DNA from: an uncultured Chthoniobacter sp.
GTDB lineage: Bacteria; Verrucomicrobiota; Verrucomicrobiia; Chthoniobacterales; Chthoniobacteraceae
NCBI GenBank assembly: GCA_903874975.1
Contig: CAIQUL010000323.1
Location: 1-64,000, forward strand
DNA: 64,000 nucleotides
Reading direction: 5' to 3'
Shown: piece after piece, positions 28,254 through 42,812 of the stretch
How positions within the stretch are numbered: the first letter of the stretch is position 1
How the letters are laid out: each line of letters begins with the position of its first letter
Translations under genes and position numbers: made by a program
The notes under the pieces: generated by a model
The model's database searches: none
What the model saw: the letters and a program-made list of their open reading frames with translations, nothing else
What the model was told of the DNA's origin: nothing

Positions 28254-28332
28254 GGCGCGCAATGAGCGGGATTTCCGGGGCGACTCCAAGCACAAAAAGC
28301 CCGGAGATTTCACCATTCCGCGGCACAAAAAA

Positions 28333-28430
28333 GCCGCCAGAGAGCTACGACAAAGCAAGTCGGACGACCGTTGCTGCCTTCCGGCCCTGGCGGGGTTGGT
28401 CTGCCTGCTATCCGTAGTCCCTGACGGGAC
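28333..28430 (-). ncRNA. ffs: Bacterial small signal recognition particle RNA (4.5S)
   Basis: Minus strand has GCCAGGGCCGGAAGGCAGCAACGG apical core; flanks GTCAGGGACTACG / CGTAGCTCTCTGGC pair; T-run follows. Confidence 0.88.
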
Positions 28431-36253: not shown

Positions 36254-37231
36254 TTGTCATTCATGAAATTCCACGCACTTTTCCTGGCGGTAATGTTCGG
36301 GGCAGCGACGCTCCAGGCGCAGACAGGAGCCCCTCCCGAATCGAATTCACCCGTCCTTCTCGCCCAGGCGGCCGCGCCTTTAAAAAAGGACAGCGCCGTG
36401 ACGGCGATCAATGACCGCGGGGCGAAAGACGCCAAGGAAGCCAAGGACGCAGCCATCGCAGCCGCAGCGGCGGCGGAGGACACCTTGACCATCCCGGCGA
36501 ACCGCGCGAGCGCGGGTGCGCCGTCCCCAGCCAGCATGACGGGCGACGTGACTCCGGTGACGCTGTGGAAGCTGATCCTCGACGGCGGATATGCGATGAT
36601 CCCGCTCGGCGCGCTTTCGGTCATCACGGTGATGCTCGTGCTCGTCTATCTTTTCACCCTCCGGCGCAGCTCCATCCTCTCGCCGCAGTATATGAATACG
36701 GCGGACGTGCTTTTGAAAAAGCGCGACTACCTCGGGTTGCTGGCGATCTCCAACCGGCACAGCGAGGCCGTGGCGCTGGTGGTCCGGCGCACTTTGGATT
36801 TCGCCACGAAAAACCCCACGGCTCCCTATGACGTGGTGCGAGAGATCGCGGAAACCGAGGCCGGCAGCCAGGCCGCATCGCTCCAGCACCGCACCGTGTA
36901 TCTCGCGGACATCGGCATGCTTTCACCCATGATCGGCCTGCTCGGGACGGTCATCGGCATCATTCGTTCCTTCGGCCTGCTCGGCAGCGGGCAGACGGCG
37001 ACCTCGCGCGACCTGCTGCTGGCGAACGGCGTCTCCGAGGCGCTCATCGCCACCGCGGCTGGCCTCGTGCTCGGCATCCTGGCCATGTTTTTCTACTCCG
37101 TCTTTCGCAACCGCGTCCAAAGCCTGATCTCCGATTTGGAAATCGCCACGGCCCACATTATCGGCCTCGTGGCGCTGAACTACGGCAAGAAGCGCGAAGG
37201 CTTGCGCGTGGCCGTGGACGACGAGTATTGA
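36254..37231 (+). CDS. MotA/TolQ/ExbB proton channel family protein
   Basis: LYLADIGMLSPMIGLLGTVIGIIRSFGLLGSGQ..LLLANGVSEALIATAAGLVLGILAMFFYSVFRNRV. Confidence 0.92.
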   Translation: MSFMKFHALFLAVMFGAATLQAQTGAPPESNSPVLLAQAAAPLKKDSAVTAINDRGAKDAKEAKDAAIAAAAAAEDTLTIPANRASAGAPSPASMTGDVTPVTLWKLILDGGYAMIPLGALSVITVMLVLVYLFTLRRSSILSPQYMNTADVLLKKRDYLGLLAISNRHSEAVALVVRRTLDFATKNPTAPYDVVREIAETEAGSQAASLQHRTVYLADIGMLSPMIGLLGTVIGIIRSFGLLGSGQTATSRDLLLANGVSEALIATAAGLVLGILAMFFYSVFRNRVQSLISDLEIATAHIIGLVALNYGKKREGLRVAVDDEY

Positions 37232-37240
37232 TCCGACCGC

Positions 37241-37654
37241 ATGAATCTCCGCAAACGGACTGAGCCTCACATCATCGGCTTTCAGATCGCGCCGATGGTG
37301 GACATCCTCCTCGTGCTGCTCTGCTTCTTCATCGTCACGTGGAGCTTTGCGAAAAAGGAACTCGATCTGAAAGTGCGCGTGCCCTCCGCGCAAAACGCGG
37401 CGGAGTCCGCCTCGGTGGTCAATCAAACCGTGCTCAACGTCCGCCCCGACGGCACGGTGATCTGGAACAACAAGCCCGTCCCGCGCGCCGAATTGCTCAC
37501 GCGGTTGAAGGAACTCTCGGGGCTTTTCCCCGACTACTCGATCATCGTGCGCGGGCATGAGAACGCCGAATGGCGGCGCATCTCCGACGTGCTCGACACC
37601 TGCCGCGAGGCCAACATCTGGAACGTCGCGTTTGCCACGCGGAAAGCCGAATGA
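37241..37654 (+). CDS. ExbD/TolR biopolymer transport protein
   Basis: IGFQIAPMVDILLVLLCFFIVTWSF; periplasmic domain with VLNVRPDGTVIWNNKPVPRAELLTRLKEL. Confidence 0.92.
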   Translation: MNLRKRTEPHIIGFQIAPMVDILLVLLCFFIVTWSFAKKELDLKVRVPSAQNAAESASVVNQTVLNVRPDGTVIWNNKPVPRAELLTRLKELSGLFPDYSIIVRGHENAEWRRISDVLDTCREANIWNVAFATRKAE

Positions 37655-40167
37655 GGACGCTGGTCGGCGCAAGTCTGGCCGCGCTACTCCTCGCGCTGCC
37701 CCCGGCGGAAGGCCAGGATACCAAGCCGCCGGTCCTGAAACCCTTCGCCCTCGACGACGACGGCAAGCCGATCCCGCGCGCCGAACCCATCGTCCCGGCC
37801 GCCCCGCCGAAGCCCGCGCCGGTGGCCGCCGCGACGCCCAAGCCCGCCGGCGTCGTGGCCCCGCCCAAGCCGATGACCGTGCCCGAGGTCGCCGATCCGG
37901 GGACGATCCGCGTGACTCCGAGCGGCACGCCGCGTTCCGCCGAGCAGCTCCAGATCGACCTGGCCAATGGCTACTATGCCAAGAAGATGTTCGATCTGGC
38001 CGCGCCGGAGTACGAGAAATTTCTCACCGTTTTCCCGAACTCCGCGCAGCGGCCCGAGGCCCTCTTTCGCCTCGGCGAATCCTACCGCCGCAACGGCACC
38101 ACCAACGCCGCCCGCAACGCCTACGAAACCCTCCTCTCCCAATTCCAGACCGGCGAATTCATCGGCCCCGCCGCCTACCGTCTGGCGGAAATGTGCTACG
38201 CCGAGAAGCAATTTCGCGAGGCCCTCAACCTCTACCGCAAGGCCGCGGTGCGGTTGAAAGATCCCGCCGTCGCCAACTCCGCGAAGTTTTTTACCGCCCG
38301 CTCGCTCGAGGCGCTGGGCCAGAAACTCGACGCCCGCACGGCCTACGAAGACCTCGCCTCGACCGTCGAGGCCAACCCCTTTCAGGATGCCAGCCGCCTC
38401 TCCGCCGCACTCCTGCTCCGCGAGGGTGGCCGCACGGCCGACGCCGTCAAACAGATGCAGGTCCTCTCCGTCAAAGCGGAGAACCCGGAACTGAAACTCG
38501 AAGCCACCGTCCGCCTCGGCCTCTGGTCGCTCGAAACCGAACCGCCGCAACCCGCGCAGGCCGAAACCGCCTTTAAGAAAGCCCTGACCATGCCCGGCCC
38601 GGCCCGCTGGAAAGAGATCGCCCAAGTCGGGGTGCTGCGGATCGCGTTCGACGGCGGCAAATACCAGCAGGTTATTGATAGCTACAATCAGCCCGGCGCA
38701 CAGTTCTCCGCGGACGTCCGCCCTGAGTTGACCTTGCTCGTGGCCGACTCCATGCGCCAGCTCGGCAAGACCGCCGAGGCCATGCGCTTCTACGATTCCG
38801 TTATCCGGGATTACTCCAGCTCCGTGTATGCCAAGGAGGCGCAATACCAGCGGCTAAAGATGCTCTACAACGGCGGCGACGACCAACTGGTGCCCGCCAT
38901 CGACCAATACCTCGCCGCCAATCCCGAGGCCGAAAAGCGCGACCAGATCATGCTCATGAAGGCCGAGCTTTTTTTCAAAAAGAAGGACTACGCCAACGCC
39001 GCGCCGATCTACTCCTCGGTCGAGCTTTCGCGCCAGCTTTCCGGCACCCTCAAGGCGGAGGCACTCTTCAAGCTCGGCTGGTGCCAGATGGAAATGAAAG
39101 CCTTCGAACAGGGCACGAAAGCCTTCACTGCATTCATCGAAGGCTACCCCACGCACAAGCTCATCCCGGCCGCCATGACCCAGCGCGCCATCGGCTGGCA
39201 GTCGCAGAAAAATCTCGGCGCCGCCCTCGCCGACTACAACGACCTCATCAAGAAATTCCCGCAGGCCAAGGAACGCGAAATGGCCCTGCACCAAAAGGGC
39301 CTCATCCTCGGCATGCAGGGCGACAACGCGGCCATGGCCGAGACCTTCAAGCTCCTCCTCACCGACTACCCGAAATCCGCCGCCCGCGGGCAGGCCGTTT
39401 ACTGGCTCGGCTGGGCGGCCTTTGAGGCCAAGAACTACAAGGACGCCGTGCCCTATCTCGACGAAGCCCGGAAATCCGACAAAGAGCAGTGGGGCGAGAA
39501 AGCCAGCATTCGGCTCCTGCTCTCGCACTATTACCTTGAGGACAAAGTCGCGGCCGCGCGCGAGGTCGATTTTTACGCCAAAGAAGGCAAGACCACGGTG
39601 CCCGCGGACATCCTGCGCTGGCTCGGCACCGAATTGAGCAAAGGCGGGGCGTTTGAGTCCGCCGAGAAATACCTCCTGCTGCTGACGCCCCGCGACGAGG
39701 TCACGCCCGCCGATTTTCTCCTCCTCGGCCGCAGCCAGCACTCGCTGGAGAAATACAAGGAGGCGGGCGCATCCATCGGAGCGTATCTTCAGGCCGTGAA
39801 GCTCCCGAAGCAGCGCGCCGAGGGTCTGCTCGCGCTCACCAAATCGCAAATTGCACTCAAGGAGTTCGCCGCCGCCCAGCAATCCGTGGATGAGATCACC
39901 CGGCTCCAACCCGAAGGCGACCTCAACGCCGAGGCCCGCATCAGCGCTGGCGACATCCAGATGGCGCGCGGCAAAACGGAGGAAGCGGCAAAACTCTACG
40001 AAGCCGTGCATCTCGTCGGCGTCGATCATCAGGAAATCACTCCGCGCTCCCTCGCCAAAGCCATCCAGGCCTACCGCGCCGCCGGCAACGAGGAGAAGGT
40101 CAAGAAACTCACCAACATCCTCCAAAGCCGCTACCCTGAATACGTGCAGGCCAACAAGCCATCGTAG
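37651..40167 (+). CDS. Large secreted tetratricopeptide-repeat protein
   Basis: Signal peptide, Pro/Ala linker, many TPR-like helices (YYAKKMFDLAAPEYEKFLTVFPNSAQRPEALFRLGESY); ATGA overlap with exbD-like gene. Confidence 0.88.
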   Translation: MRTLVGASLAALLLALPPAEGQDTKPPVLKPFALDDDGKPIPRAEPIVPAAPPKPAPVAAATPKPAGVVAPPKPMTVPEVADPGTIRVTPSGTPRSAEQLQIDLANGYYAKKMFDLAAPEYEKFLTVFPNSAQRPEALFRLGESYRRNGTTNAARNAYETLLSQFQTGEFIGPAAYRLAEMCYAEKQFREALNLYRKAAVRLKDPAVANSAKFFTARSLEALGQKLDARTAYEDLASTVEANPFQDASRLSAALLLREGGRTADAVKQMQVLSVKAENPELKLEATVRLGLWSLETEPPQPAQAETAFKKALTMPGPARWKEIAQVGVLRIAFDGGKYQQVIDSYNQPGAQFSADVRPELTLLVADSMRQLGKTAEAMRFYDSVIRDYSSSVYAKEAQYQRLKMLYNGGDDQLVPAIDQYLAANPEAEKRDQIMLMKAELFFKKKDYANAAPIYSSVELSRQLSGTLKAEALFKLGWCQMEMKAFEQGTKAFTAFIEGYPTHKLIPAAMTQRAIGWQSQKNLGAALADYNDLIKKFPQAKEREMALHQKGLILGMQGDNAAMAETFKLLLTDYPKSAARGQAVYWLGWAAFEAKNYKDAVPYLDEARKSDKEQWGEKASIRLLLSHYYLEDKVAAAREVDFYAKEGKTTVPADILRWLGTELSKGGAFESAEKYLLLLTPRDEVTPADFLLLGRSQHSLEKYKEAGASIGAYLQAVKLPKQRAEGLLALTKSQIALKEFAAAQQSVDEITRLQPEGDLNAEARISAGDIQMARGKTEEAAKLYEAVHLVGVDHQEITPRSLAKAIQAYRAAGNEEKVKKLTNILQSRYPEYVQANKPS

Positions 40168-40239: not shown

Positions 40240-41289
40240 GTGAACGCTGTCTTCGCCGCCTACCGCGAGTTGGAAACGCGCATCCTCGCCGCACTGCGCG
40301 AGGATTTGCGCGAGGCGGAATTCGATGCGCTGGCGCTGGCGGCGCACGCTTTCCAAAAGCGCTGGAACACGCCCTACGCGAATTTTTGCGCGCCGCGCCC
40401 GACCGCCATGCACTGGCGGGAGATTCCCGCCGTGCCGCAGAGCGCGTTCAAAACCGCGCGGCTCTCGGTCGCGCCGCCGGGGATGATCTCGCGGACGTTT
40501 CGCACGAGCGGGACGACGGGTGAGGGTTTCGGCGAGCATCATTTCATCGACCCGCGGCTCTACGATGCGGCGATGCTGGCAGGGTGGGATTGGCTGGATC
40601 GCCGCAGCGCGGAGGCGGTGATTTTGCTCACGCAGGAAAGCGCGGACGCGCCGCAGTCCTCGCTCGCGCAGATGTTCAGCACGCTGGCGCGCGAGCGCTT
40701 CGGCGAGTTTGTCTTCGCGGTGGTGAACGGAGGCGGGGCGCTGGATGTGGAGCGCTTTCGCGCGGCGATGAAGACCTGCTTTTCCGCGAAACGCCCGGTC
40801 GCGTTGCTCGGCACGGCGCTGGCGTTTCTTCATCTAAGCGAACAGGTCGGCGGGGAATGTTTTGACCGGCTACCCGGCACGCTGGTGCTTGAAACCGGCG
40901 GCTACAAAGGCAGCGGGCGGGAGGTGCCGAAAGTTGAGCTCTACCGCCGAATCGGCGGGCTCTTTGACCTGGAGCCGGAAGACATCCTCAACGAATACGG
41001 CATGACGGAACTCAGCTCGCAGTTTTACACCCGCGGGCTCGGCCGGCCGCACGAGGGGCCGCCGTGGGTGCGCGCGGTGGTCATCGATCCCGAGACGGGC
41101 GGCGAGACGGCGGTGGGCGAAACGGGCGTGCTGCGCATTTTCGATCTCGCGAATCTCGGCTCGGTGCTGGCCGTGGAAACGCAGGATCTCGCGGTGCGGC
41201 GCGAGCGCGGTTTCGAATTGCTCGGGCGCGCTCCCGCGGCGCTCCCGCGCGGCTGCTCGCGCGCGGCGGATGAAAGGCTGCGCGCGTGA
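40240..41289 (+). CDS. LuxE-like acyl-protein synthetase
   Basis: AYRELETRILAAL..AFQKRWNTPYANFC, FRTSGTTGEGFGEHHFIDPRLYDAAM, GLFDLEPEDILNEYGMTELSSQFYTRGLGRPHEGPPWVRAVVIDPETGGE; GTG start likely. Confidence 0.82.
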   Translation: MNAVFAAYRELETRILAALREDLREAEFDALALAAHAFQKRWNTPYANFCAPRPTAMHWREIPAVPQSAFKTARLSVAPPGMISRTFRTSGTTGEGFGEHHFIDPRLYDAAMLAGWDWLDRRSAEAVILLTQESADAPQSSLAQMFSTLARERFGEFVFAVVNGGGALDVERFRAAMKTCFSAKRPVALLGTALAFLHLSEQVGGECFDRLPGTLVLETGGYKGSGREVPKVELYRRIGGLFDLEPEDILNEYGMTELSSQFYTRGLGRPHEGPPWVRAVVIDPETGGETAVGETGVLRIFDLANLGSVLAVETQDLAVRRERGFELLGRAPAALPRGCSRAADERLRA

Positions 41290-41294
41290 ATGCG

Positions 41295-41450
41295 CCGGGT
41301 GGAGCACGCGACTCGCGTGCTGTTTGCGGCGACCCGCCGCGAACATCGGGAGAGCGCGCCGCAATGCGTGGCCCGCGCTGCGTGACGATGCGCTCCCGGT
41401 GTATTCGGCGGGTCGCCGAACACCGCACGCGGGTCGCGTGCTCCACCCGG
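41295..41450. repeat. ~156 bp imperfect palindrome (MITE/REPIN-like)
   Basis: ccgggtggagcacgcgactcgcgtgc ... gcacgcgggtcgcgtgctccacccgg; inner cggcgacccgccg / cggcgggtcgccg arms. Confidence 0.88.
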
Positions 41451-41476
41451 AACCGCAAGCGCCGGGCTTGCTTTCC

Positions 41477-42553
41477 ATGAACACCGCCGAACGCGCCCAC
41501 CACCTCGCTGCCGCCGCGGCACGCTTCCCATTTCTCGGCCGCACGACCGCGGACGAGCTGCTCGCGCTGGTGCGCGCGGAGTTCAGCCATGCGGAGGCGC
41601 TGGATGATTTCGTCCCGTACGGCGGACACTTCGCAAAAGTGCTGGCGGTGGAGACGATCCTCCACGTGGTCAGCGCCAACACTCCGGCAGCCGGACTGCA
41701 AAGTCTGATCCGCGGACTGCTGCTGGGCGCGCACAACCTTTGCAAAACTCCCTCCGCGGGCCTGCCGGAGATCGGTGAGTTTCGTGCCGCGCTGCCGGCG
41801 GAACTGACGGCGCGCGTGGAAATCGCCGGCGAACTCCCCGCCGACTGGCTCGCCCGCGCCGACGCGCTGATCGTCTTCGGCCACGACGCCACGATCGCGC
41901 ATTTCCGCACCCTTGCGCGACCTGAGCAGCGCTTCATCGCGCACGGCCACCGGCTGAGCTTCGGCGTGGTCTTCGACGACCCGGCGCACGCATCCGCGCC
42001 GCTCGCCGCGCGCGATGCCTCGCTTTTCGATCAGCAAGGCTGCCTTTCACCGCATGTTTTCTACGTGGCTGGAGACGCCCGCGGCTATGCGGCCCGGTTG
42101 GCGGAAGAGATGCGCGCGTTTCAAGAGCGGGAGCCGCGCGGAAAGATCGCCCTCGCCGAGGCCAACGCGATTCGCACGCGCCGCGAGGATCTCGCCTTCC
42201 GCGCCGCCCAGGGCGAGCCGATCACGCTGTGGCAGAGCGAGGCCTCGACGGCGTGGACGGTGGTGTGCGACGCGCGCCCCGGCTTTCCGCGCTCGCCGCT
42301 GAACCGCTTCGTCTTCGTCAAGCCGCTGCCCACAGATTTCGGTGCGGAGTTGCGCGAGGTCCGCGCACACTTGAGTTGCGCCGGGTTCTGGCCCGCCACG
42401 CTCGCGCACGCCCGCACGCTCGCGCCGCTCGGCGTCTCCCGCCTTTGCCCGCTCGGGCAGATGCAGGAGCCGCCGTGGACGTGGCTCCAGGACGGCGCGC
42501 CCGCGCTCGCGCCTCTGGTGCGCTGGGTCGGCACGGAAGGCGCGCGCGAGTAG
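41477..42553 (+). CDS. LuxC-like acyl-CoA/acyl-protein reductase
   Basis: [99 protein letters not shown]. Confidence 0.85.
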
Positions 42554-42593: not shown

Positions 42594-42812
42594 ATGTCGA
42601 AAGAAGACGCGATCAAGACGGAAGGCGTCGTCCAGGAAGTTCTCCCCGGAACCATGTTCCGCGTGAAGCTGCCGAACGGCACGCTGGTTCTCGCCCACAT
42701 TTCGGGCAAAATGCGCAACCACTTCATCCGCATCGTGCCGGGTGACAAAGTCGAGATCGAGTTGTCGGCTTACGATCTGTCCAAGGCGCGCATCATTTTC
42801 CGCGAGCAATAA
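42594..42812 (+). CDS. infA: Translation initiation factor IF-1
   Basis: [69 protein letters not shown]. Confidence 0.97.

Follow-up and report, generated by a model that had tools for sequence, protein, structure and literature searches.

Two adjacent genes in a 64,000-nucleotide stretch of DNA from an uncultured Chthoniobacter sp. (the window) encode members of the LuxE and LuxC families. With a probability of about 0.7, the pair is a non-luminescent, ATP- and NADPH-dependent fatty-acid reductase that supplies aldehyde to lipid or envelope chemistry. LuxE and LuxC are familiar chiefly as light-production enzymes, which in luminous bacteria convert a fatty acid into the aldehyde used by luciferase. 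The present reading draws on family membership, residue conservation, co-inheritance, coupling, fusion in relatives and gene context, all observed here. An initial annotation had placed adjacent LuxE-like and LuxC-like genes at positions 40240–42553. Both open reading frames were confirmed, both proteins score above the cut-offs of their Pfam families, and their best relatives in the PDB are the two chains of one solved complex, 7XC6. Profile searches did not place the proteins in other ALDH or AMP-ligase families; the catalytic Cys and adenylation residues are retained, and two motifs picked out earlier, FRTSGTTGEG and QQGCLSP, are present in the window proteins and conserved in relatives.

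The luxE-like gene (40240..41289, + strand) begins with a GTG start codon and encodes a predicted acyl-protein synthetase of 349 residues, as judged from PF04443, chain 7xc6_E, the family alignment and the predicted fold. In a protein-level scan, LuxE matched PF04443 with 30.4 bits (E 2.4e-7), exceeding the cut-off of 24.9 by little. The luxE gene was missed when the genome was searched in six frames with PF04443; as the protein-level scan and the alignment are both positive, this miss is read as a limit of the first-look filter. The best PDB relative by sequence is 7xc6_E, named 'LuxE' (1.9e-7). Structure comparison of the LuxE model (mean pLDDT 85.7) matched PaaK-type adenylate-forming ligases, so that the adenylation fold is common to LuxE and the PaaK-type acyl-CoA ligases of the ANL superfamily. 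However, a LuxE family profile built from relatives strongly favours the LuxE chain 7xc6_E (1.5e-26) over the best CoA ligase in the PDB (0.0057), and LuxE gives a weak score against PF00501. Across an alignment of 16 diverse sequences, nearly all retain the adenylation motifs TSGTTG (within FRTSGTTGEG), ETGGYKGSGR and NEYGMTEL, and Cys339 in the C-terminal RGCS motif is invariant. We take Cys339 to be equivalent to the C-terminal Cys that is acylated in LuxE of luminous bacteria (Vibrio); the PDB alignment of LuxE with 7xc6_E ends before this residue.

The luxC-like gene (41477..42553, + strand) begins with ATG and encodes a predicted acyl reductase of 358 residues, a short LuxC, identified from PF05893, chain 7xc6_A and the family alignment. 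A longer luxC reading frame starts at 41270 and extends back across the spacer between the genes. LuxC matched PF05893 with 146.6 bits (E 1.3e-42, cut-off 21), and its best PDB relative by sequence is 7xc6_A, a long-chain acyl-protein thioester reductase (2.4e-9); the family profile built from relatives found the same chain with 4.3e-29. The candidate catalytic residue is Cys191 in QQGCLSP (numbered from base 41471; Cys189 if counted from the ATG); 15 of the 16 diverse relatives aligned have this Cys. In the QQGCLS segment it aligns with the Cys of DQQACFS in 7xc6_A, within a shared Q-x-C-x-S context. The 477 residues of 7xc6_A exceed the length of the window protein by approximately 120.

Both protein families, the catalytic Cys, the adenylation motifs and the functional pairing are common to the window pair and the luminous LuxC–LuxE reductase (7XC6; PF05893, PF04443). 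The window pair is nevertheless distant from it in sequence, and scores against the curated NCBIfam luminescence models are far too low for lux genes: 49.8 bits against a cut-off of 750 for LuxC (NF052251) and 31.2 against 550 for LuxE (NF052244). On these scores, the window proteins are classed as relatives of the luminescence proteins and not as lux genes. Further differences from the luminous enzyme are the shorter LuxC, the fusion found in one related genus and the lack of a luciferase match in the window's genome. The absence of LuxAB reported in the initial annotation holds genome-wide, with no match to the luciferase family LuxA/LuxB (PF00296) in the whole genome (~96% complete), compared with matches in 10 of 14 control genomes. 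The LuxD acyltransferase/thioesterase family (PF02273) gave no match in the genome, nor in the controls. The initial annotation had also proposed a non-luminescent aldehyde route, which is favoured by the families, the residues, the pairing and the missing luciferase match; its suggestion of wax as a product found no support, as wax synthase PF03007 (WS/DGAT) had no match in 97 genomes (the window's own and relatives), in a search in which no positive control matched either.

A mechanism can be proposed that takes its acyl substrate, its cofactor, its product and the order of transfer from the Lux system. LuxE would bind a carboxylic acid, for which a long-chain fatty acid is the likeliest candidate, together with ATP, and form an acyl-AMP. 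It would then shift the acyl group onto its own C-terminal Cys339, from which the group would be handed to the catalytic Cys191 of LuxC. LuxC would reduce the acyl group with NADPH and release an aldehyde. The aldehyde would presumably enter a pathway of lipid or envelope metabolism; a luciferase to consume it was not found.

The two genes are inherited together. Among the 97 genomes, strong matches to both LuxE and LuxC occur in 37, to LuxC only in five, to LuxE only in one and to neither in 54 (Fisher p 4e-20). Counted by genus, the corresponding numbers are 15, 2, 0 and 18 (p 4e-8); as genomes are not independent, both p-values are indicative only. In an even sample of the phylum, LuxE and LuxC were each found in the same seven of 115 genomes. 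The genes are unlinked in 11 of the 37 genomes that have both. Measurements at adjacent luxE–luxC loci gave 59 in which the genes overlap, in most cases by 4 bases, seven with the genes no more than 50 nt apart and 10 with both fused in one reading frame; some genomes are counted twice.

The LuxE–LuxC fusions, all from one genus, are single open reading frames of approximately 690–760 residues with no stop codon, in the order LuxE, linker, LuxC. One of them spans 8471–10621 of L034. The LuxE tree places the fusions in a single clade, a grouping less well supported in the LuxC tree. The predicted structure of the fusion was of too low quality to be used (mean pLDDT 58.9, seven sequences). A separate, very divergent LuxE–LuxC fusion of 848 residues lies directly after a FadD-type ligase in another genome (G026, locus L059).

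LuxC was found without LuxE in genomes G004, G007, G017, G021 and G049. One of these few genomes (G004) is from the same genus as the window. LuxC may thus also accept acyl groups from CoA or ACP. A stronger form of this idea seems quite unlikely: acyl-CoA or acyl-ACP would be the main substrate of LuxC, aldehyde would be made independently of LuxE, and LuxE itself would be a helper or an acyl-transfer protein. It would account for the genomes with LuxC only, and also for the FadD-type acyl-CoA ligase, expected to make acyl-CoA, that is found next to luxC or luxE, or a few genes away, in several families (L041, L043, L045, L046, L063, L059, L060 and L080). It sits poorly, however, with the near-perfect co-occurrence of LuxE and LuxC, their coupling by overlap and their fusion, and some of the LuxC-only exceptions could stem from incomplete genomes. 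G004 itself is 92% complete; at its locus (L032), LuxC stands in the conserved infA–DUF883–pilT synteny, LuxE was not found in the genome, and the LuxC Cys motif reads DSHGCLSP in place of DQQGCLSP.

Overlap is the usual arrangement in relatives, whereas luxE and luxC in the window are separated by a spacer of 187 nt, most of which is an imperfect palindrome (41295..41450, no strand assigned). This MITE/REP-like repeat of approximately 155 bp consists of two 61-bp arms and a 34-nt loop, and shuffled versions of it fold far less well (z −9.8). It has 93 matches in the genome counting both strands, which corresponds to roughly 40 places (L163–L172). Full-length copies are mostly 70–80% identical to one another. 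The palindrome appears to be a small mobile element that inserted between luxE and luxC. It may weaken their co-expression, and is incidental to the enzymes. A role as a regulatory part specific to the pair was rejected because the element occurs in so many places in the genome. The insertion, together with the missing luciferase match, could be taken to mean that LuxE and LuxC are functionless, decaying remnants of a lux system. The chance of this is close to negligible given how well the pair is conserved: the catalytic motifs are intact, the LuxE and LuxC trees recover the same family clades, and relatives at 50–60% identity retain both genes.

A scan of species genomes returned 291 LuxE relatives. 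The best 80 of these come mainly from Chthoniobacterales (Spartobacteria, Chthoniobacter, Terrimicrobiaceae) and Verrucomicrobiales (Akkermansiaceae, Rubritalea, Persicirhabdus), and also include a few from Sumerlaeota, Gemmatimonadetes and others. Downstream of luxC in the window lies infA (42594..42812, + strand), presumed from recognition of its translation initiation factor IF-1 sequence and from synteny. The initial annotation had named infA as a neighbour, and conservation of the pair beside it is now apparent in both orders: luxE–luxC–infA recurs in Chthoniobacterales and Verrucomicrobiales, at some loci with two pilT genes after infA, which is also the order in the window. The gene is a conserved housekeeping neighbour outside the pathway. 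Similarly, the genes that we take, by sequence recognition, to be tyrA–aroA–cmk–plsC lie beside luxE in Verrucomicrobiales; they were considered as functional partners of luxE and are read instead as reflecting an inherited position.

Neighbours from fatty-acid metabolism vary by lineage. In addition to the FadD-type ligases, FabF adjoins the fusion at L033 and L034, and a fatty-acid desaturase adjoins luxE at L046 and L063; none of these adjoins the pair in the window. Such neighbours fit a fatty-acyl substrate, short of proof. A different gene order, PLP aminotransferase-like–LuxE–LuxC with a longer LuxC (444–449 residues), was seen at three loci (L145:2991-6795, L157:6083-10264 and L161:6752-10411), and suggests a route from acid to aldehyde to amine in those lineages.

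Non-luminous LuxE/LuxC pairs are already known. LuxE and LuxC occur outside a lux operon in the flagellin-glycosylation islands of Aeromonas (PMC7874193) and Enterobacteriaceae (PMC4875605), where they accompany ACP, FabG and an AMP-ligase. RfbN of Vibrio cholerae is a LuxE-domain protein proposed to act in tetronate formation (PMC4772473). In Riemerella anatipestifer, the LuxE homologue AS87_03730 was deleted, and the authors raised the question of the role of LuxE in non-luminescent bacteria (PMC4772473); like the window's luxE, this is a LuxE-family gene of a non-luminous species, although one from a different phylum, Bacteroidota. The island genes and RfbN, and the possibility of other products in lineages with the aminotransferase operon, lend some weight to the idea that the substrate of the window pair is not a long-chain fatty acid but another carboxylate, such as a sugar acid or a short hydroxy acid destined for a surface glycan; a reaction of this kind has been proposed for RfbN and is conceivable for the island genes. 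This alternative is considered unlikely: clusters of sugar or glycan genes were not seen to recur beside the Verrucomicrobiota pair, and of the metabolic genes that do recur there, those with a plausible link are FadD, FabF and the desaturase. The island genes lie in variable glycan islands, whereas the window pair, next to infA, is a unit conserved on the chromosome, and glycan genes were not seen with it. A search of open-licence papers found none on LuxE/LuxC in Verrucomicrobiota; the notable points here are the fusion and the deep conservation of the pair.

Upstream of luxE and on the same strand lie ExbB, ExbD and TPR genes (36254..40167, + strand; PF01618, PF02472 and TPR families). In at least four other families, a divergently oriented VWA–ExbD–ExbD–ExbB–TPR operon stands beside luxE, also where luxC is unlinked. 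The gene order in this operon is VWA protein, ExbD, ExbD, ExbB, an unknown protein and TPR protein (L048, L061, L073, L078, L080 and L118). It might be supposed from these positions, which extend to Verrucomicrobiales loci such as L118 and L128, that LuxE and LuxC work as part of an adjoining ExbB/ExbD/TPR envelope machine. That is very unlikely, as the set in the window is a different operon: its Exb proteins are only 24–30% identical to those of the divergent operon, no BLAST match was obtained for the TPR protein, and a closer match to that protein sits on another contig (C75). Many loci, moreover, carry the pair without Exb genes, and a shared ancestral position suffices to explain the adjacency. 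The Exb/TPR genes were accordingly not accepted as partners of the pair, and a functional link between them is doubtful.

The preferred reading, a fatty-acid reductase that feeds lipid or envelope chemistry, can be extended to the wider group. Tentatively, and at somewhat less than even odds, part of the Verrucomicrobiota may have long relied on a vertically inherited, non-luminous fatty-acid reductase for a lipid or envelope function. This would include a single-chain LuxE–LuxC enzyme in which activation, carriage and reduction of the acyl group all take place on one protein, and the aldehyde would serve a lipid class undescribed in these bacteria. The retention and coupling of the pair across two orders, together with the lack of a luciferase match in the genome examined, suggest that aldehyde formation is an older or wider use of LuxE and LuxC. 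The natural fusions are candidates for compact carboxylic-acid reductases, and could ease study of the acyl hand-over from LuxE to LuxC.

Elsewhere in the window, the sole Rfam match at gathering score is a bacterial small SRP RNA (RF00169) at 28332–28426 on the − strand.
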